Source of the DNA: Gemmatimonadota bacterium | GTDB taxonomy: Bacteria; Gemmatimonadota; Gemmatimonadetes; Gemmatimonadales; GWC2-71-9 | NCBI GenBank assembly: GCA_029862935.1 | Contig: JAOTWK010000148.1 | Span: 1 to 7,971 of the forward strand | Direction of reading: 5' to 3' | DNA: 7,971 bases | Shown here: positions 1 to 7,971 of the stretch, one piece after another | Layout: every line of letters begins with the position of its first letter | Numbering within the stretch: position 1 is the stretch's first letter | Notes under the pieces: model-generated | Told to the model about the DNA's origin: nothing | What the model saw: only the letters and a program-made list of their open reading frames with translations | The model's database searches: none | Made by a program: the position numbers and the translations under genes

Positions 1-1
1 C

Positions 2-2299
2 GAGGGTGGGGTATACCGCTCGGATGACGGCGGGAAGACATGGACCCGGACCAACGAGGAGCGGAGACTGAGACAGCGTGCGTTCTACTACACGCGTGTC
101 TATGCGGATCCAGAGAATCCGGACGTGATGTACGCGCTCAACACGGGATTCTATCGCTCGCAGGACGGAGGAAAGACGTTCCGTCGCATCTCGGTGCCCC
201 ACGGGGACAACCACGATCTGTGGATTGCGCCCAACGATCCGAATCGCATGATCGAGGCCAACGACGGTGGCGCCAACGTCTCGTTCAACGCCGGAGCAAC
301 GTGGACCGAACAGGATTATCCCACCGCGCAGTTCTACCGTGTCATGACGACCAACCACGAGCCGTATTTCATCTGCGGCGCGCAACAGGACAACTCGACG
401 GCGTGCATCCCGAGCCGCGGCTGGAATCACCTGGGTCGACAGGGTGGGGGATCCGGCCCGTTCTACTTCGCGCCGGGTGGCTGTGAGAGCGGATACATCG
501 CGAACAGTCCCGCAAACCCCAACATCTTCTACGCGGGGTGTTACGGGGGGAGTCTCAGCCGATTCGACTACCACACCGGCACGCGGCGTCAGATCAACGT
601 GTGGCCCGAGAACCCGATGGGGCAATCGTCCGAGGACTTGATCGAGCGCGTGCAATGGACGTTCCCAATCGTGTTCTCCCACCACGATCCCAATGTGCTG
701 TACACGGGAACGCAGAAGGTCTGGAAGACGACCAACGAAGGGCAGACGTGGACGGCGATCAGTTCAGATCTGACGCGTCACGCCCCGGAGACGATGGGCG
801 CGTCGGGCGGTCCGATCACGAAGGATCAGACCGGGGTCGAGACGTACGCCACAGTCTTTGCCATCGCGCCGTCGCACCACGACGCCAACGTGATCTGGGT
901 GGGGTCGGATGACGGGTACGTGCATGTGACGCGGGATGGCGGAGGGAGTTGGCAGAACGTGACGCCGCGTGACGCCCCCGACTTCATCCGCATCAACACG
1001 ATCGACGCCTCACCTACGGCCCCGGGGAAGGCGTATGTCGCGGGCATTCGCTATCTCGTGGACAACGATCGCGGGCCCTACATCTGGAAGACGGATGACT
1101 TCGGCGCGACATGGACCAAGATCGTGAACGGAATCCCTGCTGACGATTTCATCCGGGCCGTGCGGGAAGACCCCGCGCGCCCCGGTCTCCTGTACGCGGC
1201 GTCGGAGCGCACGGTCTACGTCTCGTGGGATGACGGGGGAAGCTGGCAGCCGTTGACGCTTGGTCTCCCCACCGTGCAGGTCTCGGACCTCGTAGTTGCA
1301 AACGACGACATCGTGATCGGGACGCACGGGCGCTCGTTTTGGTCGCTCAACGGGATCGGACCGCTCCGGCAGTTGAGTCCGCAGATCGCAGAGGCCATCG
1401 TGCACCTGTATGACCCGGCCGACGCTGTGCGCGGGGTGGATGGCGGTGTCCAGGTGGTGTACTACCTGAAGGAGACAGTGGATTCCTTGACCCTCGAGTT
1501 CCTGGACGCCGGCGGCACCGTCATCGACAGCTTTGTCGGGACGGCCGACGCAGGTGGAGAACGGGACGAGAGCGAGCCCAGTTTTGGGTTCGGGGGTGGT
1601 CGGCGGTCACCGTCAGTGGAGGCCGGCTCACACAGCTTCACCTGGAACATGCGGTACCCCGGATACACGGACTTCGATGGCCGAATCTTCTGGGCGGCCG
1701 GCAACTTCGGCCCGATGGCGGTACCGGGGTCGTATCGGGTGAGACTCATGACGGGAGAGGTTGTACAGACGCAGGACTTTGCCATCACGATGGATCCGCG
1801 GCTCGAGGAACAGGTCACTGTGGCACAGCTCGAGCAGCGATTCGACTTGGCTCTTGAGATCCGCGACCGTGTGAGCGATGCGAACGAAGCGGTGATCTGG
1901 ATTCGCGACATCAAGACCGCGATTGACGATCGACTGGAAGCCACGAGCGATCGCGCCGTCACGCGCCAGGCAGAGACGACGAAGTCGCGCTTGAGTGCCG
2001 TGGAGGGCGAGGTCTATCAGGTGCGCAACGAGAGCAATCAAGATCCGCTCAACTTCCCGATCAAGCTCAACAACAAGCTTGCGGCACTCATGGGGGTGGT
2101 GGAGAGTGGCGAGGCGCCCCCGACCGACCAGGCGGCTCAGGTGTATCAGCATCTGAGTGGGCTGCTGCAAACGCAGCTTGACCGACTGAATAGCATTGTG
2201 GAGACGGACTTGGGCCGCTTGAACACGCTGTTGGAGGCTCAGGGGCTCGAGCCGATCGAGGTAGAACGCCCGGTGCGTGGGGAGACAGCTGGGAGTTGA
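2..2299 (+). CDS. Sortilin/VPS10-like Asp-box (BNR) repeat beta-propeller protein, N-terminus outside the window
   Basis: The frame is open from base 2 to the TGA at 2297-2299 (765 residues), and the start lies upstream of the window. Seven Asp-box motifs of the form S/T-x-(D/N)-x-G-x-T/S-W/F are visible, for example YRSDDGGKTW near the edge, YRSQDGGKTF about 50 residues in, then at bases 719-751, 919-951, 1078-1113 and 1213-1245. They mark the blades of a sialidase/sortilin-type propeller. The propeller closes with a THGRSFW motif near base 1322, typical of bacterial VPS10-domain 'glycosyl hydrolase' annotations. Next come a beta-rich segment (about 1450-1800, ending in PGSYRVRL) and a helical, charged tail (about 1800-2270) that may form a coiled coil. 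Family members are usually around 1000 residues, so about a quarter is missing, probably including a secretion signal. Asp-boxes are structural and no catalytic residues can be named, so enzymatic activity is not claimed. Base 2300 onward is repeat DNA. Confidence 0.9.
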   Translation, partial: EGGVYRSDDGGKTWTRTNEERRLRQRAFYYTRVYADPENPDVMYALNTGFYRSQDGGKTFRRISVPHGDNHDLWIAPNDPNRMIEANDGGANVSFNAGATWTEQDYPTAQFYRVMTTNHEPYFICGAQQDNSTACIPSRGWNHLGRQGGGSGPFYFAPGGCESGYIANSPANPNIFYAGCYGGSLSRFDYHTGTRRQINVWPENPMGQSSEDLIERVQWTFPIVFSHHDPNVLYTGTQKVWKTTNEGQTWTAISSDLTRHAPETMGASGGPITKDQTGVETYATVFAIAPSHHDANVIWVGSDDGYVHVTRDGGGSWQNVTPRDAPDFIRINTIDASPTAPGKAYVAGIRYLVDNDRGPYIWKTDDFGATWTKIVNGIPADDFIRAVREDPARPGLLYAASERTVYVSWDDGGSWQPLTLGLPTVQVSDLVVANDDIVIGTHGRSFWSLNGIGPLRQLSPQIAEAIVHLYDPADAVRGVDGGVQVVYYLKETVDSLTLEFLDAGGTVIDSFVGTADAGGERDESEPSFGFGGGRRSPSVEAGSHSFTWNMRYPGYTDFDGRIFWAAGNFGPMAVPGSYRVRLMTGEVVQTQDFAITMDPRLEEQVTVAQLEQRFDLALEIRDRVSDANEAVIWIRDIKTAIDDRLEATSDRAVTRQAETTKSRLSAVEGEVYQVRNESNQDPLNFPIKLNNKLAALMGVVESGEAPPTDQAAQVYQHLSGLLQTQLDRLNSIVETDLGRLNTLLEAQGLEPIEVERPVRGETAGS

Positions 2300-2301
2300 G
2301 G

Positions 2302-2351
2302 AGGGGCAGGAAGGGCAGGAGGGGCAGTACTGCGGCTACAGGGCGGCAGGG
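2302..2351 (+). repeat. Module A repeat: G-rich 9-base tandem units after a stop codon
   Basis: Three near-identical 9-base units lie at 2302-2310, 2311-2319 and 2320-2328 (aggggcagg, aagggcagg, aggggcagt), followed by a decayed G-rich stretch to 2351. The array starts two bases after the stop codon of the upstream gene, with the G-rich strand in the sense direction. Five runs of three or more G occur (2303-2306, 2313-2315, 2321-2324, 2341-2343, 2349-2351), so the transcript could form a G-quadruplex; that is an inference. The same unit recurs at 2859, 4297 and, inverted, around 5140-5182. Confidence 0.8.
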
Positions 2352-2358
2352 CTGAACC

Positions 2359-2480
2359 AGACGACTGAGACGACTCGGACGACGACGACCGATGGCCGAA
2401 CCGGACGACTCTGACGACGAGGACGACTGCTAGGACGACTGCGACAACGGCAGCGCGGACGATTGCCACGACGAACTACG
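2359..2480 (+). repeat. Module B repeat: degenerate 9-base gacgac-type array
   Basis: The stretch is dominated by units close to gagacgact with a mostly 9-base spacing. It is regular at 2359-2390 and more degenerate toward 2480. Reading frames through it give only low-complexity Asp/Ser/Arg strings and have no ribosome site, so I regard it as non-coding. It lies between module A and module C in the 272-base gap between the propeller gene and the nfu-like gene. Cleaner copies are at 2929-2964 (inverted) and 4324-4359. Confidence 0.75.
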
Positions 2481-2509
2481 ACTGGCAGAGGGAACCACCG
2501 ATAGCTCAA

Positions 2510-2579
2510 GGCTCATGGCTGATGGCTGATGGCTGTAGGCTGACAGCTGAATAACTGAAAACTGAGAACCGATGACTGA
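2510..2579 (+). repeat. Module C repeat: heptanucleotide array running through the nfu-like start codon
   Basis: Ten 7-base units run in one phase from 2510 to 2579: ggctcat, ggctgat, ggctgat, ggctgta, ggctgac, agctgaa, taactga, aaactga, gaaccga, tgactga. The units diverge toward the 3' end. The ATG at 2572-2574 of the next gene straddles the last two units, so the leader and the first codons of that gene appear built from this repeat. A complementary five-unit copy lies at 3234-3268. Confidence 0.8.
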
Positions 2580-2859
2580 CTCAACCATTACTGACGACCG
2601 CATGTACGATCTCGTAGACGAGATCTTCCGTACGCAGGTCAATCCGGCAGTGGCGCAACACGGCGGACGCATCGATCTCATCGACGTGCAGCACGGAATC
2701 ATCGTCGTCCGCATGATGGGTGGGTGTCAGGGCTGTGGCATGGCGACCCAGACGCTGCGGCAAGGCATCGAAGCATCGCTCGAGCGAACGGTGCCAGGCT
2801 TCCGCGGCATTCAGGACATCACGGATCACGACGCCGGGACGAATCCGTATTACGAGTAG
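2572..2859 (+). CDS. NifU C-terminal-domain (Nfu-type) Fe-S cluster scaffold/carrier protein
   Basis: This 95-residue protein is a single NifU C-terminal domain. The family binds a 4Fe-4S cluster between two subunits through a C-x2-C motif and hands it to apo-proteins in the cytoplasm. The motif is GGCQGCGMA (Cys52, Cys55), preceded by the HGG...IDLIDVQHG strand-turn-strand and followed by TLRQGIEASL, the helix expected after the motif. The C-terminus DHDAGTNPYYE matches the ending of many short bacterial Nfu proteins. No A-type or NifU N-terminal domain is attached. No convincing Shine-Dalgarno sequence precedes ATG 2572; the upstream sequence is module C repeat. An in-frame ATG at 2602 (residue 11) would keep the whole domain and is a real alternative. 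The TAG stop is at once followed by module A repeat. Clients could include the Fe-S proteins nearby, but that is inference. Confidence 0.93.
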   Translation: MTDSTITDDRMYDLVDEIFRTQVNPAVAQHGGRIDLIDVQHGIIVVRMMGGCQGCGMATQTLRQGIEASLERTVPGFRGIQDITDHDAGTNPYYE

Positions 2860-2905
2860 GGGCAGGAGGGGTAGGAGGGGCAGAGGGGGACGGAAGGGGC
2901 AGAGG
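2859..2905 (+). repeat. Module A repeat with four G4 tracts (G-quadruplex motif)
   Basis: Five 9-base units follow in phase: 2859-2867 ggggcagga, 2868-2876 ggggtagga, 2877-2885 ggggcagag, 2886-2894 ggggacgga and 2895-2903 aggggcaga. The first G is the last base of the nfu-like TAG stop. G tracts at 2859-2862, 2868-2871, 2877-2880 and 2885-2889 are separated by 5, 5 and 4 bases, a strong quadruplex-forming pattern on the coding strand. This is the cleanest copy of module A in the window. Confidence 0.85.
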
Positions 2906-2923
2906 AGACCGAGCTGCCCCTTC
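2893..2923 (+). terminator. Hairpin of opposed A repeats, possible transcription terminator after the nfu-like gene
   Basis: A perfect 10-base-pair stem joins gaaggggcag (2893-2902) to ctgccccttc (2914-2923), with an 11-base loop. Only a weak T-containing stretch (ttatct) follows, so intrinsic termination would be imperfect. The right arm is the complement of module A, so the hairpin arises where a direct and an inverted repeat copy meet. A role in ending the nfu-like transcript before the tRNA promoter is plausible but inferred. Confidence 0.5.
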
Positions 2924-2928
2924 TTATC

Positions 2929-3008
2929 TAGTCGTCTTTGTCGTCGCAGTCGTCTGAGTCGTCTGTTCTGTTGCCCTCCCGCCCTGCTGCTTCTGCCTTC
3001 CACTTCCC
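2929..3008 (-). repeat. Inverted modules B and A
   Basis: Read on the minus strand, this is degenerate A-like sequence followed by four clean 9-base B units. On the plus strand the B units are tagtcgtct 2929-2937, ttgtcgtcg 2938-2946, cagtcgtct 2947-2955 and gagtcgtct 2956-2964, followed by a C/T-rich tract to about 3008. Together with the direct A copy at 2859 it forms a head-to-head arrangement between the nfu-like gene and the tRNA genes. I see no coding potential here. Confidence 0.75.
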
Positions 3009-3012
3009 TGTC

Positions 3013-3041
3013 TTGATTCCCTCTCCGACCCCCGGTATGTT
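3013..3041 (+). promoter_or_regulatory. Candidate sigma70-type promoter for the tRNA pair
   Basis: TTGATT (3013-3018) and TATGTT (3036-3041) are separated by exactly 17 bases, each matching the consensus hexamer at four of six positions. Initiation would fall near 3048, about 24 bases before the first tRNA base. The leader contains a small ggagg/cctcc inverted repeat (3053-3057 with 3065-3069). No competing promoter is obvious closer to the tRNA genes. Confidence 0.5.
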
Positions 3042-3071
3042 CCCCTCCCTTAGGAGGTTACGTCCCTCCGA

Positions 3072-3153
3072 GCCCTGGTGGTGAAACTGGTAGACACGCT
3101 GTCTTGAGGGGGCAGTGGCGCGAGCCGTCCCGGTTCGAATCCGGGCCAGGGCA
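3072..3153 (+). tRNA. tRNA-Leu (anticodon GAG)
   Basis: This folds as a class II tRNA. The acceptor stem gccctgg (3072-3078) pairs perfectly with ccagggc (3146-3152), with discriminator A at 3153. The D-arm contains ctggtaga. The anticodon stem ctgtc/ggcag encloses the loop ttgaggg (3104-3110) with anticodon GAG at 3106-3108, reading CUC/CUU. A long variable arm (3116-3128, ggc-gcga-gcc hairpin) is typical of leucine tRNA. The T-arm is cccgg-ttcgaat-ccggg (3129-3145). No 3' CCA is encoded, so it must be added after transcription. It is probably cotranscribed with the tRNA-Thr starting five bases downstream. Confidence 0.96.
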
Positions 3154-3158
3154 TGGCT

Positions 3159-3230
3159 GCCACCGTAGCTCAGCGGTAGAGCTCTCGATTCGTAATCGAG
3201 TGGTCGTCGGTTCGATTCCGACCGGTGGCT
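3159..3230 (+). tRNA. tRNA-Thr (anticodon CGT)
   Basis: This is a 72-base class I cloverleaf. The acceptor gccaccg (3159-3165) pairs with cggtggc (3223-3229), with discriminator T at 3230. The D-arm is gctc (3168-3171) with gagc (3179-3182). The anticodon stem ctcga/tcgag holds the loop ttcgtaa (3189-3195) with anticodon CGT at 3191-3193, decoding ACG. The T-arm is gtcgg-ttcgatt-ccgac (3206-3222). No CCA is encoded. Module C repeat begins four bases after its end, leaving almost no spacer before the converging gene on the minus strand. Confidence 0.96.
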
Positions 3231-3233
3231 CTC

Positions 3234-3268
3234 TGAGCTTTCAGCTCTCAGCTGTCAGCTTTCAGCTC
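3234..3268 (-). repeat. Module C repeat: five heptanucleotides overlapping a stop codon
   Basis: The plus-strand units are tgagctt 3234-3240, tcagctc 3241-3247, tcagctg 3248-3254, tcagctt 3255-3261 and tcagctc 3262-3268, the complement of the 2510-2579 array. The TGA stop of the minus-strand ferredoxin gene (3262-3264) and the two codons before it fall in the last unit. Apart from four bases next to the tRNA, the array fills the whole space between the converging tRNA-Thr and ferredoxin genes. Confidence 0.85.
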
Positions 3269-4218
3269 GTCAGGACGAGGGGTTCCCTGACGGGTGCTCC
3301 TTCCCCGATCTCGCGCACATCCAATGGAATACCCTTGCGCTCGTCGCGGACGAGTGCGATCGCCTCCGTGTCGCAATGCCCCTCACACACTCCGCATCCC
3401 ATGCACTTCTCCCATTCGACGCGAGCGCGGCCGTTGACGGATACCGCTTCGAACGGACAGGCTTCCTCGCAGGTACCGCAGGCGATGCAGGCCAACTCGT
3501 CGACCTCCGCGACGAAGCCGGACGACGCGACCATTGGGATGCCGTTCTTCACCATCGCCTCCAAGCCGCCGCAGCAGCAGGAGCAGCAATTACAGATGGC
3601 GTAGAAACGGTTGTCGCAGGCGTCCTTGAAGTACGCGGTGTGCACGTGGCCGCGCTCGTGTTCGGCCTCGAGGAGCGCCAGTGCTTCGTCTTGTGACACG
3701 CGTCGCGAGCGCTCTGGGTGGTGGTCTCGCGTGAACGACCCTTCTCCCACGATCATGCACACGTCCGTGGGTTGACATGGGTTCTCACGCGCGTGCCGGC
3801 ACGGACACTCGAGCAGCGTCACGGTGGGCGAAGCCTGGAGCACGATGTCGCGTGCGGTCGGGTAGGGGATCACCTGCTCCAAGTCGGTTCTCGCGATGTC
3901 GTGATCGAGTCGGATGATGGCGCAGGCCAGCTCGGTCGGCACGACCTTGCCGTGATAGTGGTCAGCCCACCACTGCTTGAAGCGCGGTGACATTCGCGGC
4001 ATTACGCGATGGACAAGGAAGCTGATGTACTGATACGGCCATCGCCCATAGACGTACCCGTGCAGCGCGTTGAGCAATGACCGATGGTGTCCGTTCTGCC
4101 CACGGCGATTGAGCGCCTTCCGGGTGGATGGCAGCATCAGATGGCCCCGCTCACCGATGATCCACAAGGCAGCAAGAGCCACGAACGGAACAGCCACGAG
4201 CGAAAGGAGCCAGAACAT
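3262..4218 (-). CDS. Membrane-anchored cysteine-rich protein with two C-terminal 4Fe-4S ferredoxin motifs
   Basis: I choose ATG 4216-4218 (318 residues) because AGGAG stands 7 bases upstream and the protein then begins directly with a hydrophobic helix (residues 1-22, MFWLLSLVAVPFV...). A TTG at 4255-4257 would add 13 residues. The middle carries two further cysteine groups: CPCRHARENPCQPTDVC (Cys138, 140, 148, 154) and CNCCSCCCGG (Cys209, 211, 212, 214, 215, 216). Two classic ferredoxin motifs follow: CIACGTCEEACP (Cys244-254) and CMGCGVCEGHC (Cys272-282). Similar CPCR...CNCC-x-CCC...ferredoxin proteins occur in diverse bacteria and archaea as '4Fe-4S binding protein'; to my knowledge their reaction is unknown. 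Electron transfer at the membrane is likely, and the extra cysteines may hold a further cluster. Its stop codon lies in repeat C and its upstream region is module A-B-D repeat. Confidence 0.88.
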   Translation of the reverse strand: MFWLLSLVAVPFVALAALWIIGERGHLMLPSTRKALNRRGQNGHHRSLLNALHGYVYGRWPYQYISFLVHRVMPRMSPRFKQWWADHYHGKVVPTELACAIIRLDHDIARTDLEQVIPYPTARDIVLQASPTVTLLECPCRHARENPCQPTDVCMIVGEGSFTRDHHPERSRRVSQDEALALLEAEHERGHVHTAYFKDACDNRFYAICNCCSCCCGGLEAMVKNGIPMVASSGFVAEVDELACIACGTCEEACPFEAVSVNGRARVEWEKCMGCGVCEGHCDTEAIALVRDERKGIPLDVREIGEGAPVREPLVLTS

Positions 4219-4289
4219 GGGCGTGCTCCTAAAGAGGTGAGGTGCCGTTACCGCCAAAGTGCGGAAAAGAGTGAGAAAGCGCTAGGTTG

Positions 4290-4447
4290 GTGGAGGGGGG
4301 CAGATGGGGCAGAGGGGGCAGGAGAGACGACTCGGACGACTGAGACGACTGAGACGACCAATTGGGACGCTCTTCTCCAACCGTCTTGGACCGTCCTAGA
4401 CCGTCTTGGACCGTCTCGCTGTTCTCGACCGTCCTTGACCGTCTCTG
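4290..4447 (+). repeat. Composite A-B-D repeat block
   Basis: Seven 9-base units run in one phase from 4297 to 4359: ggggcagat, ggggcagag and ggggcagga (module A), then gagacgact, cggacgact, gagacgact and gagacgacc (module B). A 20-base gap leads to module D, 10-base units accgtcttgg at 4380, 4390 and 4400, an 18-base variant at 4410, then accgtccttg at 4428 and accgtctctg at 4438. The shared phase of A and B suggests they are variants of one array. The block fills most of the gap between the divergent ferredoxin and small membrane protein genes. Any promoters for those genes are hidden in or next to it; I found no convincing one. Confidence 0.85.
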
Positions 4448-4502
4448 ATCTTCGAAACACCTGACTCCCCGTCGCGTAAGGTGACACGAGGAGGGAAATA
4501 CC

Positions 4503-4784
4503 ATGGACTTCGGAAATCTCATTTGGATTGCCGCAACCGGCGCGGCCAGTATCTGGGGTTACATCCAGACGCGACGCTTCGTGCGCCAGAAGCTCAGGTT
4601 TGTCGAACCGGTGCAGAAACCGGTGGCACCTGTTGTCGCCGGCGCGGCCGCGGCGCTCATCGCCGCACCTGTGGTGTGGCTGCTACCCTTTGTCGGTGTG
4701 GGGACGGCTGTCCTGTTCGGTGCCGGTGTCGGCGTCGGCGCGAGTCACGGCCAGAAGGACGTGAGACGGTTGCCTGGCGGCTAA
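4503..4784 (+). CDS. Small hydrophobic membrane protein of unknown function
   Basis: This is a 93-residue protein starting at ATG 4503, with gaggaggg about 6 bases upstream, one of the best ribosome sites in the window. Residues 4-20 (GNLIWIAATGAASIWGY) form one likely membrane helix. A basic stretch follows (TRRFVRQK, residues 23-30). A long Ala/Val/Gly-rich region at about 42-80 is enough for two more helices joined at a Leu-Pro. The tail is short and charged (GQKDVRRLPGG). The basic loop after helix 1 would stay cytoplasmic by the positive-inside rule. I do not recognise the family and see no catalytic motif. Codon use resembles the neighbours and the frame is intact, so it looks like a real gene. 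With the next gene it sits between inverted A-B-D repeat blocks. Confidence 0.8.
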   Translation: MDFGNLIWIAATGAASIWGYIQTRRFVRQKLRFVEPVQKPVAPVVAGAAAALIAAPVVWLLPFVGVGTAVLFGAGVGVGASHGQKDVRRLPGG

Positions 4785-4798
4785 GCATGCCATAAAAT
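4770..4798 (+). promoter_or_regulatory. Candidate promoter for the DRR-motif gene
   Basis: TTGCCT (4770-4775) and TAAAAT (4793-4798) are spaced by 17 bases; the -10 box matches consensus at five of six positions. The -35 box lies inside the last codons of the small membrane protein gene. Transcription would begin near 4805, about 20 bases before the TTG start or 60 before the ATG start of the next gene. This suggests the two small genes can be expressed separately. Confidence 0.5.
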
Positions 4799-4825
4799 GG
4801 GCTGCGACCGCTCGAGGCACCGATC

Positions 4826-5071
4826 TTGAAGGGTGGTGTCGACGTCCCTTCGACCGGAATCGGCATGAACAACGGGCCATTCGGCTTTGATGCATCACAG
4901 GAACGGCGTTCCGGCGATGACCGCCGTGCGCCGGGGGATCGTCGTGCGGGGACCGAGCGACGAAAAGAAGTGCGGCGCCGTCCACGCCCCACGACGAGCA
5001 CGGGACGCCGCCGGGGGAACGATAGGCGTGTTGGTGAACGGCGAAGCGGTCTGGATCGTCGGGTGGCCTAG
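4826..5071 (+). CDS. Small Arg-rich protein with repeated DRR/ERR motifs, function unknown
   Basis: This is 81 residues from TTG 4826 (GAGG 8 bases upstream) or 68 from ATG 4865, which has only a weak GGAA upstream; the start is uncertain. The C-terminal two thirds is a run of short motifs: ERRSGDDRRAPGDRRAGTERR, a linker rich in Arg and Pro, then GNDRRVGERRSGLDRRVA. Spacing between RR pairs is mostly 7-8 residues, which could place the charges on one face of a helix or in a disordered nucleic-acid- or lipid-binding tail. Similar RRSG-x-DRR strings occur in scattered bacterial proteins, including tails of signalling proteins, but I know of no assigned function. The only other long forward frame here lacks such periodicity, supporting this one. 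The stop (5069-5071) is followed within ten bases by inverted repeat D. Confidence 0.68.
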   Translation: MKGGVDVPSTGIGMNNGPFGFDASQERRSGDDRRAPGDRRAGTERRKEVRRRPRPTTSTGRRRGNDRRVGERRSGLDRRVA

Positions 5072-5077
5072 AATCAA

Positions 5078-5182
5078 GACGGGCCGAGACGGCCGAGGAC
5101 GGTCTAAGGGCGCCACACTCCTCGAGTCGTCTCAGTCGTCCCCCCTCTGCCCCCTCTGCGCCGTCTCCCCCTCCTACTCCCT
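5078..5182 (-). repeat. Composite A-B-D repeat block, inverted copy
   Basis: Read on the minus strand from 5182 downward, the order is G-rich module A (runs of three to six G at 5179-5181, 5167-5171, 5150-5154 and 5140-5145), two B units (plus-strand gagtcgtct 5124-5132, cagtcgtcc 5133-5141), then degenerate D units (accgtcctcg, gccgtctcgg, cccgtcttg) down to 5078. This is the same module order as at 4290-4447 in opposite orientation. Its A end abuts the TAG stop of the minus-strand epimerase-like gene (5183-5185), again G-rich in the sense of transcription. Confidence 0.8.
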
Positions 5183-6088
5183 CTATCTCAGTAGATCCTC
5201 CAGAGCCTGATCCAGCGCCGGGAACTGAAACTCGAATCCTGCGTCCAGTGCTCGCGTTGGGATGGCGCGCTGGAGGTCGAGCAATGCGTCCGCCGCTTCC
5301 CCCAGCATGAGCCTCAGGACGAACGCGGGGGCCGGGACGAACGCAGGGCGATGGAGCGCCTTACCAAGCGCCGCGGCAAACTCGGCGACGGTCACGGGGT
5401 TGGGAGCGGTCAGGTTGATCGGACCGCTGAGCCGATGGTCAAGTGCATAGAGGATCAGCTCAATGTGATCGGCGAGATGGATCCACGACCACCATTGGTC
5501 GCCCGATCCCCACGGTCCACCGAGCCCGAGACGAAAGAGCGGCAGGAGCGCGTCGAGGACGCCTCCTCCCTGGCCCAACACCAAGCCTGTGCGCAGCAAC
5601 GCCACCGTCGCCACGTCCTGGGCCTCGAGTGCTGCGGCCTCCCAGTCCTGCGCCAGCGCCGCCAGGAAGTCGTCACCGGGAGGAGCCGACTCGTCGACAA
5701 TCGCGTCGCCGCGCACCCCGTAAAACCCTATGGCTGATGAGCTTAGCAAGATCTCTGGTGGTGTGGCTGCCTGCTTCATGGCGGCAACCAGGTTCTGCGT
5801 CGTGTCGATCCGGCTGCGGCGGAGCAGGGACTTGCGGGCCTCCGTCCAGCGGTGTGGCGGATCCACGATCTTGGCCCCTGCCAGGTTCACGATCACGTCC
5901 GCTTGCGCGACCTCCGTCTGCCAGCGACCGGCCAACACCGGATCACCCCGCACCACCCGTACCGCCGGATCATCCCACGGATCGCGACCCGACCGAGAGA
6001 GCACGACGCACTCGTGACCCCTCGCTGCAAAGACGCGAACGAGGTGCGATCCGATGAATCCTGAGCCGCCAGTGATGAAAACCCGCAA
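5183..6088 (-). CDS. TIGR01777-family NAD(P)-binding epimerase-like protein (extended SDR, YfcH type)
   Basis: The sequence opens with MRVFITGGSGFIGSHLV, the Rossmann nucleotide-binding loop GGxGFIG at residues 7-13. It continues with VNLAGA (about 68-73), SSSAIGFYG (116-124), RTGLVLG (about 166-172) and WSWIHLAD (200-207), all hallmarks of the TIGR01777 group. The C-terminus (RPAFVPAPAFVLRLMLGEAAD... to ALEDLLR) is the usual DUF1731-like end. Length (301 residues) is normal. The usual YxxxK catalytic pair of SDR enzymes is not evident, as expected for this group, whose substrate is unknown. I prefer TTG 6086-6088 because an AGGGA stands 8 bases upstream and most homologues begin at this point; TTG 6092-6094 would add two residues. 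The gene diverges from the radical SAM gene across an AT-richer gap of about 165 bases, where I found no strong promoter on either strand. Confidence 0.9.
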   Translation of the reverse strand: MRVFITGGSGFIGSHLVRVFAARGHECVVLSRSGRDPWDDPAVRVVRGDPVLAGRWQTEVAQADVIVNLAGAKIVDPPHRWTEARKSLLRRSRIDTTQNLVAAMKQAATPPEILLSSSAIGFYGVRGDAIVDESAPPGDDFLAALAQDWEAAALEAQDVATVALLRTGLVLGQGGGVLDALLPLFRLGLGGPWGSGDQWWSWIHLADHIELILYALDHRLSGPINLTAPNPVTVAEFAAALGKALHRPAFVPAPAFVLRLMLGEAADALLDLQRAIPTRALDAGFEFQFPALDQALEDLLR

Positions 6089-6256
6089 CGACAAAATCCC
6101 TAAGTGATTGTTTTTATTGAGTTTAGGTGGAACACCGGTTGGCCTGAGGTGTGTGAAGGGGTAACTTTCTCAGCGTAGAGAATCTACTCAGGAGCCTAGT
6201 CTAGCGCAGAGCCAAACGCTGCCTTCGTCGCAGGCGATCCGACCGGAGGAGGGCCT

Positions 6257-7438
6257 ATGCGGGTGCGTTATCTCACCCAACTGTCGAAGCTCGAGGGCCT
6301 CACGGCCGAGGAGCGTCGACGGCTCGAGCCGGTAGCCTCTCGCTACGCTTTTCGCTTGAACAGCTATTACGAGCGGCTGATCAACTGGGCCGATCCGAAC
6401 GACCCCTTGCGCCGTCTTGTCATCCCGCTGGAATCCGAGCTCAACGATTGGGGAGTCCTGGACGCGAGTGCCGAGGCAGGCTACACGCCGGTCCGCGGGT
6501 GCCAGCATAAGTACACCGACACCGCGTTGCTGTTGATCAACGAGGTGTGTGGTGCCTACTGCCGCTACTGTTTCCGCAAGCGGCTGTTCATGAATGACAA
6601 CGACGACGCGGCCATCGACCACCGACCCGGACTCAGGTACATCGCAGAGCACGAGGAGATCACCAACGTGCTGCTGACGGGCGGCGATCCTCTCATCATG
6701 TCGACCCGTCGACTCGAGACGATCATCAGCGACGTGGCGGCGGTTCCGCACGTCCGCATCGTGCGGATCGGCTCCAAGATGGTTGCGTTCAATCCCTACC
6801 GGGTGCTCGACGATCCCAGTCTGCTCGAGATGATCACCCATTTCTGCGAGAGCGGTACGCAGATCTACATCATGAACCATTTCGACCATCCGAGGGAACT
6901 GACTCCCGAAGCACGGCGGGCCATCACGCTGCTCAAGCAGGCCGGTGCGATGACGATCAATCAATGTCCGATTGTGCGCGGCGTAAACGACAGCCCGCGG
7001 ATCTTCGGTGCGTTGTTCCGCGAGTTGTCGGTCATGGGGTGCCCGCAATACTACGTGTTCCAGGGACGTCCAACCGCCGGCAACGAGCCCTACGAAGTTC
7101 CCATCGTCAACGGGTATAACATCGTGCTCGAAGCGTCACGCCACGTGTCGGGGCTGGCCAAGCGTGCGCGCTTTGCGATGTCGCACCAGACGGGGAAGAT
7201 CGAGATCTTCGGCGTCGACGATCGGTACATCTACATGCGCTATCACCGCGCCCACAAGAAAGAGGACTTCGGGCAAGTCGTGGTCGCACTGCGTGATGAC
7301 GATGCGTACTGGCTGGACCAATTGACGATTGTCACGGGGCCGGATTCGGCCATCGAGCACGCGGCGGGCCACGATCCGAGCGCGGGCTTCGGAAGTGACT
7401 CGTACGAGGGTCGCCACCGGAGGTGGCTAAGGGGGTAG
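6257..7438 (+). CDS. KamA-family radical SAM protein (lysine 2,3-aminomutase-like)
   Basis: This 393-residue protein starts at ATG 6257 behind a strong GGAGGAGG. The radical SAM triad is CGAYCRYCF (Cys98, Cys102, Cys105), which holds the 4Fe-4S cluster that cleaves S-adenosylmethionine. GGDP at 142-145 is the SAM-binding loop. RGVND (241-245) and YYVFQGRP (266-272) follow as in KamA/EpmB proteins, and Lys314 in HQTGKIEI sits where the PLP-binding lysine of lysine 2,3-aminomutase occurs. Aligned by eye to the clostridial enzyme, the two aspartates that bind the substrate amino group (Asp293 and Asp330 there) fall at Arg271 and about Ala307, so lysine is unlikely to be bound in the same way. 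An N-terminal extension of about 75 residues and a tail beyond Lys314 of about 80 residues are present. No elongation factor P gene is nearby to suggest an EpmB role. Family certain, substrate unknown. Confidence 0.92.
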   Translation: MRVRYLTQLSKLEGLTAEERRRLEPVASRYAFRLNSYYERLINWADPNDPLRRLVIPLESELNDWGVLDASAEAGYTPVRGCQHKYTDTALLLINEVCGAYCRYCFRKRLFMNDNDDAAIDHRPGLRYIAEHEEITNVLLTGGDPLIMSTRRLETIISDVAAVPHVRIVRIGSKMVAFNPYRVLDDPSLLEMITHFCESGTQIYIMNHFDHPRELTPEARRAITLLKQAGAMTINQCPIVRGVNDSPRIFGALFRELSVMGCPQYYVFQGRPTAGNEPYEVPIVNGYNIVLEASRHVSGLAKRARFAMSHQTGKIEIFGVDDRYIYMRYHRAHKKEDFGQVVVALRDDDAYWLDQLTIVTGPDSAIEHAAGHDPSAGFGSDSYEGRHRRWLRG

Positions 7439-7460
7439 GGCTGCCCGATCGACGACAGTC

Positions 7461-7497
7461 AAGCGTGCGGTGCACCCAGTAGGTGCGCCGCACGTTT
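7461..7497. terminator. Strong hairpin between converging genes, likely bidirectional terminator
   Basis: cgtgcggtgcacc (7464-7476) pairs with ggtgcgccgcacg (7482-7494) over 13 base pairs with a single G-U, around a 5-base loop. The flanking aag/ttt extends the stem. It lies 23 bases after the radical SAM stop and 24 bases before the end of the minus-strand gene. The T run is short in both directions, so efficiency is uncertain. It is unrelated to the repeat modules. Confidence 0.75.
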
Positions 7498-7520
7498 CTG
7501 CGTTGGGCTGAAGGTGACGA

Positions 7521-7971
7521 TCAGTGTCGGTCGTCGACCTGAATCCGTGCATCAATCGCGAGTGCTCCCTGCTCCAGGGCTATCAGCGGATTGATGTCCA
7601 TTTCAATGATCCGTGGATGCCGCTCGGCGAGTTGTGACAGTCGAAGGATCGCTTGCGACAGGGCCGTGCGATCGCGTGGTGGCTCGCCCCGGACGCCTTC
7701 CAACAGCCGATACATTTTCACCTCGCGGATCATCTCCTCCGCGTCGGTGTCCAACAGCGGCGTGAGACGAAGTACCACGTCTTTCATCACTTCGACGTAG
7801 ATACCGCCCATCCCGAACATCACCAGCGCCCCAACCCGCGGCATGCGGGTGAGGCCAACGATGGTCTCCGTTCCTCCCGACGCCATCTGCTGGACCAGAA
7901 TTCCGTGCAACCCTTCCCCCGTTTCCCTGCCCCCCTTCTGCCTCCCCTCCTCTACTCTCTTCACCATCTCT
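7521..7971 (-). CDS. ADP-forming acetate/acyl-CoA ligase, C-terminal end of the ATP-grasp domain (partial)
   Basis: The frame is open from the window edge to the stop at 7521-7523. It shows the conserved end of the ATP-grasp domain of NDP-forming acyl-CoA synthetases: GILVQQMASGGTETIVG, VMFGMGGIYVEVMKD, LLEGVRGEPPRD, LSQLAERHPRI and IIEMDINPLIAL, ending in AIDARIQVDD. In this family these enzymes interconvert acyl-CoA, ADP and phosphate with acid, CoA and ATP; Glu and Asn of EMDINP lie in the metal/ATP site. The gene may be a separate beta subunit, a fused alpha-beta enzyme or the Pat-type protein acetyltransferase fusion; the missing part would decide. An ATG at 7965-7967 is in frame but would yield a truncated domain, and the frame stays open upstream of it, so I do not take it as the start. 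About 20 residues before GILVQQM are encoded by repeat-like purine-rich DNA. Confidence 0.85.
   Translation of the reverse strand, partial: EMVKRVEEGRQKGGRETGEGLHGILVQQMASGGTETIVGLTRMPRVGALVMFGMGGIYVEVMKDVVLRLTPLLDTDAEEMIREVKMYRLLEGVRGEPPRDRTALSQAILRLSQLAERHPRIIEMDINPLIALEQGALAIDARIQVDDRH
7914..7962 (-). repeat. Module A-like purine-rich tract inside the acyl-CoA ligase reading frame
   Basis: On the coding (minus) strand this is a G/A-rich string with gaggggaggcag, aagggggg, cagggaa and gggggaaggg elements. It resembles module A but is less regular than the intergenic copies. It is in frame and encodes roughly VEEGRQKGGRETGEG, just before the conserved HGILVQQM strand. The G-rich strand is the sense strand, as for the copies that follow stop codons. 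Membership in the repeat family is likely but not proven, because any purine-rich Glu/Gly/Lys coding stretch looks similar. Confidence 0.5.

Follow-up and report, generated by a model that had tools for sequence, protein, structure and literature searches.

Short-period tandem arrays in gene-end DNA of a Gemmatimonadota lineage, with paired arms that differ together between species at one orthologous site

The short tandemly repeated repetitive (STRR) sequences of heterocystous cyanobacteria have a heptamer unit as their defining feature. Here we describe short-period tandem arrays in a 7,971-nucleotide stretch of DNA from an uncultured Gemmatimonadota bacterium (assembly GCA_029862935.1, contig JAOTWK010000148.1, positions 1 to 7,971), referred to below as the window, which holds 8 protein genes and 2 tRNAs, and in relatives of this organism. 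The arrays are real, have a preferred location and sense orientation, occur patchily and differ in their units between species, and at one orthologous site their paired arms differ together. Like STRR, they are short direct tandem units, intergenic, present in many copies per genome and patchy across lineages, and the loose parallel with STRR drawn in an earlier note on this DNA is accepted. Only unit C is a heptamer as in STRR, the units A and B measuring 9 bp and D 10 bp.

The closest known system is that of the heptamer arrays of Xanthomonas (GGGAATC) and Nostoc (GGGGA(C/T)T), which are G-rich, imperfect and dispersed (PMC4692102). In the sections of that study used here, 89–93% of the Xanthomonas arrays are intergenic and lie near the upstream open reading frame (ORF; mean distance 28 nt), and inverted pairs number 70 and 75 cases in two species, between which the arrays vary, so that 3' proximity and inverted pairing are already known from this system. 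Those sections follow a single unit type in each genus and report that arrays show no preference for either strand with respect to genes, whereas a single genome here has several units and periods (7, 9, 10), related species differ in unit and period at one site, and paired arrays with co-varying arms lie in coding sequence. The TAACTGA arrays of Beggiatoaceae, which are likewise short, intergenic and patchy across lineages, are placed upstream of start codons in the relevant part of their description (PMC4679880), while here post-stop DNA is favoured. Borg repeats, as outlined in PMC9879509, are likewise fast-evolving, located in gaps and genes, and strand-biased (towards A in Borgs, towards purine here); there they are perfect and always multiples of 3 in ORFs, unlike the imperfect, inversely paired units of 9 or 10 bp found here within a cysteine-synthase-like ORF. 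Coding palindromes of Nematomorpha mitochondria are also inverted repeats within protein-coding genes, but both their arms encode conserved protein in the cases cited from PMC6649704, while the tandem-unit arms described here encode variable stretches around a conserved core.

No description of such arrays in Gemmatimonadota was found in the open-access literature that was searched. A word search of two genome-wide tandem and inverted repeat surveys showed that Gemmatimonadota are not named in their main text, and a Gemmatimonadota repeat paper deals, in its accessible portion, with elements of 80 bp and more. Several periods per genome, in-place unit replacement and co-varying paired arrays within a gene were not found described.

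The observation of short-period arrays with several unit types in the window is confirmed as exceeding chance. Self-match windows above threshold numbered 39, 57, 15, 17 and 24 for periods 7, 9, 10, 12 and 14, respectively, and means of 0.00–0.03 were obtained for the same periods in 30 Markov simulations. The units are imperfect and occur in both orientations, as had been noticed earlier. Arrays detected by Tandem Repeats Finder fall within the gaps originally reported, but the statement that they fill nearly every intergenic gap was too broad: 5 of the 8 gaps longer than 20 bp carry them, and gaps 4785–4825, 6095–6256 and 7439–7520 are free of arrays. In 1161 intergenic and 6810 genic bases, respectively, the GGGGCAG core (one mismatch) was counted 16 and 33 times, the GACGACT core (one mismatch) 22 and 36 times, and the exact ACCGTC core 7 and 6 times.

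As a comparison set we used 288 genomes of the order of CP070716 (Gemmatimonadota bacterium bin486, G002; G numbers denote genomes and L numbers loci of relatives). Of the eight loci to which the window KamA-like protein is 74–82% identical, seven bear the titles Gemmatimonadota, Gemmatimonadetes or Gemmatimonadales and one bears the title Bacterium HR33; identity drops to 66% at the next locus. Window gene order is common, wholly or partly, to L001, L002, L006, L026 and L171. The D pattern (three copies of ACCGTCTNNN, up to 2 mismatches) was found in 28 of the 288 genomes with 205 hits in total, up to 57 in one genome, and its reversed control gave 10 hits. An A-like pattern (three copies of GGGGNAGNN, 1 mismatch) was present in 91 genomes and was heavy in G058 (113), G060 (85) and G001 (82), where controls gave 13, 18 and 8; in most other genomes its counts were near control. 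The C-like pattern (four copies of GCTGANN, 2 mismatches) was present in 112 genomes with a maximum of 150 in G194, while its reversed control AGTCGNN was abundant in other genomes (130 in G082), which therefore seem to use other heptamers. A, C and D are thus neither restricted to the window nor at chance frequency. The B pattern had no exact match in the 288 genomes and no excess over control, with 31 places in 28 genomes, all with 1–2 mismatches, against 75 for the control (summed); an exact A-A-B-B pattern gave no match over the genome contigs. Because A, C and D are heavy in some genomes and rare or absent in most, and B stays at control level, the units do not make up the one conserved family originally proposed. 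In stretches of 27 relatives, the arrayed share of intergenic DNA was 0–0.048 in 26 and 0.175 in G087; with the same mask it was 0.198 in the window.

The best paired case lies within coding sequence. The second array site in L239 is located in a cysteine-synthase-like gene, for which the best NCBIfam match is CysM, under its curated cut-off. Here a start codon overlapping the upstream stop is followed by a left array, the core EPALWGLVGNTPLIP, an inverted right array and the residues FLKAEW. The 30 best loci were drawn from the 288 genomes; the motif was readable in 24, and 6 were dropped for lack of a motif match (2 of 20 at identities of at least 76%, and 4 of 10 at 68% or less). Inspected by eye, all 18 readable orthologs at 76% identity or above have paired arrays, and none of the six readable ones at 68% or below. 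Their units, also determined by eye, are 9 or 10 bp long (GACGGTAGAG, GGCGGCAGAG, GTCGGTGGAG, GGCGGTCAG, GACGGAAGG, GGAACGATG and others), and unit and even period differ in place among the 18 orthologs. The core between the arms is conserved, with 78% mean identity. In 14 of 15 loci, L239 itself among them, the length of the site is offset from that in L239 by a multiple of 3; the exception is L270, which ends one base later at the anchor.

Arms at this site match their own partners. The alignment score of an arm with its partner is 44.6, compared to 22.6 with arms of other species (18 orthologs), and none of 100,000 permutations, restricted to the 18 array-bearing genes, reached the observed value; an earlier own-arm test in 15 species had the same sign. 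Duplex z was -2.5 or lower in 17 of the 18 orthologs and -1.5 in the remaining one, and ranged from -0.8 to 1.5 in the six distant genes. Unit dialects are not absolute, since the cysteine-synthase-like unit of G037 is unlike the units in other arrays of that genome.

To describe position relative to gene ends, the stretches of the 27 relatives were used; their choice did not depend on where arrays lie, but some of them enclose KamA or Fe-S orthologs, and extra stretches of G058, G059 and G008 were added once arrays had been seen there. They contain 85 intergenic arrays, mainly of period 7 (27) and 9 (18), and 119 more in genes, with one skipped. Stop-facing array ends lie 20 nt or less from the stop in 23 of 88 cases, compared to 12.7 expected when arrays are relocated at random within their own gaps (maximum of 2000 runs, 22), and in 17 of these 23 arrays the sense strand is purine-rich. 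Distances were also measured for 51 D arms with three or more cores, deduplicated, after 6 in-gene and 8 neighbourless arms had been dropped. Among arms with a co-directional upstream gene, 24 of 40 lie 20 nt or less from its sense stop or overlap it; the same distance applies to an antisense stop in 3 of 24 and to a downstream start in 6 of 27. Genes of relatives were predicted with a codon-usage caller that found 7 of the 8 protein genes of the window and missed 4826–5071, so some of these distances will be wrong.

The D unit, written in purine sense, is GACGGTVRRR, in which T is uncommon at the position after GACGGT and purines prevail at the last three. Its tail is genome-specific, at 1.85 bits compared to a shuffled mean of 1.02 (maximum 1.15), in a profile of 167 units contributed by the 12 genomes that have at least six each; units within one array are not independent. 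In 68 loci, chosen by unit and not by position, 83 D clusters were distinguished (2 of them counted twice through the overlap of L208 and L254): 61 single arms, 18 inverted pairs and 4 direct series. The purine arm comes first in all 18 inverted pairs, and the reversed order was not observed. Clusters are placed between convergent (18), co-directional (31) or divergent (8) genes or in called genes (17), with 9 unassigned; at least two “intergenic” ones (L202, and L239 near 3621) represent the coding cysteine-synthase-like site. In G010 and G036, the two genomes with two pairs among those listed, the loop of one paired D array is unlike that of the other. Several A-type arms of G058 and G060, read by eye, run GGAGATTAG-(NAGGGGAAG)2-4-GAGAT, as singles or inverted pairs, and their shared ends speak for copying of whole arms.

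Orthologous gaps were compared by eye, long ones being seen in part. In the gap after the sortilin-like gene, the window has the units A, B and C, L171 has GGGAAAA-like units and then their reverse complement, and L026 has GGGCGGA-like units with a reverse-complement run; in L006 this gap measures 29 bp and lacks an array, and in L001 no obvious array is present in its 364 bp. In the gap after nifU, the window holds AGGGGCAGG, L026 three copies of AGAGGGGAT and then inverted CCCTTCTAT, L001 GACGGCAG-like units, and L171 an inverted pair that is short and G-rich. No such array was seen upstream of the Fe-S gene in the inspected portion of L002 and L171. The first array site holds decamer pairs in L239, L259 and L260 and GGGAGCR heptamer pairs in L264 and L273, while L263, L265, L268 and L272 hold 27–38 bp without an array. 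At a third site, G035 and G037 have flanks that are 93–94% identical and array units that differ.

In the window itself, the features below were detected by Tandem Repeats Finder, self-match and core counts together, except where stated. The first gap opens with a plus-strand A array of 9-bp units near AGGGGCAGG at 2299–2327 (Tandem Repeats Finder and self-match), starting at the stop codon of the sortilin-like gene (2297–2299). A plus-strand B array with the GACGACT core follows at 2358–2442, drifting from a period of 9 to 12 bp at 2420–2442, and then a plus-strand C heptamer array with a CTGA core (2500–2571), in which TAACTGA occurs once. The C run extends across the nifU start codon at 2572, so that the first NifU residues look array-derived. 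At the nifU stop codon (2857–2859) another plus-strand A array begins (2858–2905; Tandem Repeats Finder and self-match), succeeded by one reverse A unit at 2914 and a minus-strand B array at 2927–2969. A minus-strand C array of AGCTGAN units (3226–3273) extends into the end of the Fe-S gene, which is also on the minus strand, and the stop codon of this gene (3262–3264) sits within a heptamer.

Further on, a plus-strand A array (4294–4323; Tandem Repeats Finder and core counts) is directly abutted by a plus-strand B array (4324–4359), and a plus-strand D decamer array occupies 4378–4447, its ACCGTC core being shared with the pattern found in 28 of the 288 relatives. On the minus strand lie D-like decamers at 5076–5103 (Tandem Repeats Finder and core counts), two B units at 5125–5141 (self-match and core counts), and an A array at 5141–5182 that adjoins the stop of the minus-strand NAD-dependent epimerase-like gene (5183–6094). 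A precedes B in the same orientation in three of the four gaps with both (2300–2571, plus; 4258–4502, plus; 5072–5182, minus). Gap 2860–3071 has four forward and one reverse A units and all four B units reverse, so that B comes before A when read on the minus strand; the preferred or conserved module order claimed earlier is therefore not established. An A-like run was seen by eye at 7915–7965 (minus strand) in the coding linker of an acyl-CoA-ligase-type ATP-grasp gene. This linker carries G-rich array DNA in the window and, as tandem repeats, in L001 (11264–11780); in L002 it is lysine-rich with no obvious array, and the motif was unmatched in L006, L026 and L171.

Some additional repeats were recorded in passing. 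In L160 (G087), 17.5% of intergenic bases in a 20-kb stretch are arrays, and heptamer arrays AGAGACT and TCGAGAA (4033–18906) flank, by eye, a palindromic repeat type gtcatcctgagcg... there. The 31 inexact B places resemble Asp-codon repeats, and the B pattern was also found in 35 viral contigs, mostly coding-repeat-like by eye and a few seemingly non-coding. Contigs of the viral collection, L123 (1–130), L103 (680–704) and L105 (4516–4540), contain AGGACGACT or GAGACGACT arrays, and L123 carries a GGGACGGTC array beside them, two distinct 9-mers being adjacent as in the window. An intergenic 21-bp array TCGATTCGAAGCTTCAAGACA of about 9 copies is located in L141 (8438–8623; G059), and a further dispersed repeat with both-strand matches, chiefly in G035 and G037, in L238 (300–411). 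Rfam models detected only the two tRNAs in the window and gave no match for the arrays; on 7 relative loci they identified a fluoride riboswitch beside one array only, in L190 (1546–1610), directly after a paired decamer array.

The explanation we favour, with moderate confidence, is that short-period arrays of 7–10 bp arise in tolerated gene-end DNA, often just after stops, in this Gemmatimonadota lineage through slippage and template switching. Arrays would lengthen and shorten through strand slippage. Where an inverted second arm is present, replication template switching would copy one arm onto the other and rewrite the pair together, so that the place would be inherited and the sequence would not. 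DNA just after the stop may be a favoured substrate because purine-rich RNA can re-anneal to the template (R-loop) once the ribosome has gone, or simply because insertions are harmless there. Units or whole arms would in addition move between sites of a genome, and effects on transcript ends would be secondary. Template switching creates and maintains hairpins, according to the cited part of PMC8794818, and transcription-linked RNA-DNA hybrids promote quasi-palindrome mutations in yeast in the results taken from PMC3820800; by analogy, such a hybrid effect would suit purine-rich post-stop DNA. The slippage followed by decay suggested in the earlier note is kept for tandem growth, and alone it is insufficient for species-specific units with arms that match each other; overall, the earlier interpretation is partly supported.

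Several observations weigh against slippage with template switching. Compared with all 18 right arms, a left arm has its best match in its own gene in only 9 cases (4 when ranked by duplex energy), and since the species are related, the p of about 1e-5 for the own-arm match overstates independence. The candidate arms of the window do not exceed shuffles in pairing (z -0.3 to -1.3), so pairing is documented in relatives only. The stop preference is not exclusive: start-facing ends lie 20 nt or less from the start in 19 of 82 cases against 11.0 expected, and so do 6 of 11 D arms with respect to the start of an opposite upstream gene, while of the 23 arrays beside stops, 5 have a pyrimidine-rich sense strand and one is balanced. 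No mutation was observed, and R-loops are something we infer. Local rewriting leaves unexplained the unit sharing between distant sites of one genome and the shared ends (GGAGATTAG...GAGAT) of several G058 and G060 elements.

A tentative, somewhat less probable reading regards the arrays as hairpin loci independent of sequence. Site, layout and pairing would be inherited, and unit and period (9 or 10 bp) would be replaced jointly in both arms, even in the coding sequence of a metabolic gene, and a genome would tend towards its own unit dialect at many sites. It needs a process that rewrites arms from each other and moves units, for which a templated writer is possible.

Mobile elements similar to repetitive extragenic palindromic (REP) sequences and REPINs, in which short non-autonomous arms, alone or as inverted dimers, would be multiplied by a transposase and tolerated at the 3' ends of genes, are an unlikely source, although they share several features with the arrays. 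REPs also occur as singles and inverted dimers, mainly adjoin ORF 3' ends and may lie in genes, as stated in the portion of PMC3733652 relied on here. Several A-type arms of G058 and G060 with shared ends exist, by eye, as singles, direct copies (L362) and inverted pairs with differing spacers, and an array is present or absent at one orthologous gap, the first site. Of 18 genomes selected as array-rich, 12 have a match to PF01797 (Y1/RAYT-type transposase), as do 4 of 12 others, a weak excess for a family wider than RAYT and drafts that may be incomplete; array-rich G060, G005, G036, G194, G190 and G248 have none, with the same reservation about drafts, whereas 3 and 2 matches were counted in G075 and G017, in which arrays are few. 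A REP or REPIN is a palindrome of 20–40 bp tagged GTAG or CGTC at one end, and the arms here are tandem 7–10-mers in variable-copy arrays with no palindromic head by eye, whose unit, and even period, differs in place among the 18 orthologs of the cysteine-synthase-like site. CGTC-tagged palindrome families without a dedicated transposase are mentioned in the same portion of PMC3733652; CGTC also occurs in the D core, where it recurs with every unit, unlike the REP end tag.

Still more doubtful are functional 3' elements, with array hairpins acting as (bidirectional) terminators or protectors of mRNA 3' ends and pairing under selection. The stop-adjacent position, the purine arm always first in pairs, the 18 of 83 D clusters between convergent genes and the arms that match their own partners agree with such a role, and inverted repeats after stops are described as typical of bacterial terminators in the passage cited from PMC13155455. 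T is enriched in the 14 nt outside paired D arms (0.33 vs 0.17), in part because degenerate units are T-rich. However, intrinsic terminators combine a G+C-rich hairpin with a U tract, and a T run of at least 4 follows the paired D arrays of relatives on only 5 of 36 sides; 61 of the 83 D clusters are one-armed, and in some cases, such as L219 and L197, the cluster takes up the very short gap between co-directional genes. The coding location of the best paired case also argues against this role, as do the arrayed gaps of the window, which fold as RNA at z -2.3 to -0.5, with the poor arm pairing given above. An artefact of low-complexity chance, misassembly or coding repeats taken for intergenic arrays would suit the B counts and the near-control A-type counts of most genomes, but is highly improbable in view of the Markov simulations, the excess of D over its control and arrays located in megabase contigs (G058, 3.17 Mb; G087, 1.33 Mb), and is ruled out for the window, for D, and for A and C in high-count genomes.

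If the arrays were functional, they would represent a 3' element without conserved sequence, invisible to homology searches. A caution follows for compensatory changes in stems, usually taken as proof of functional RNA, which can come from a mutation process. Keeping structure without sequence would be unusual for DNA, and matched arms with changing sequence would provide a natural record of template switching over many species, readable in existing genomes.

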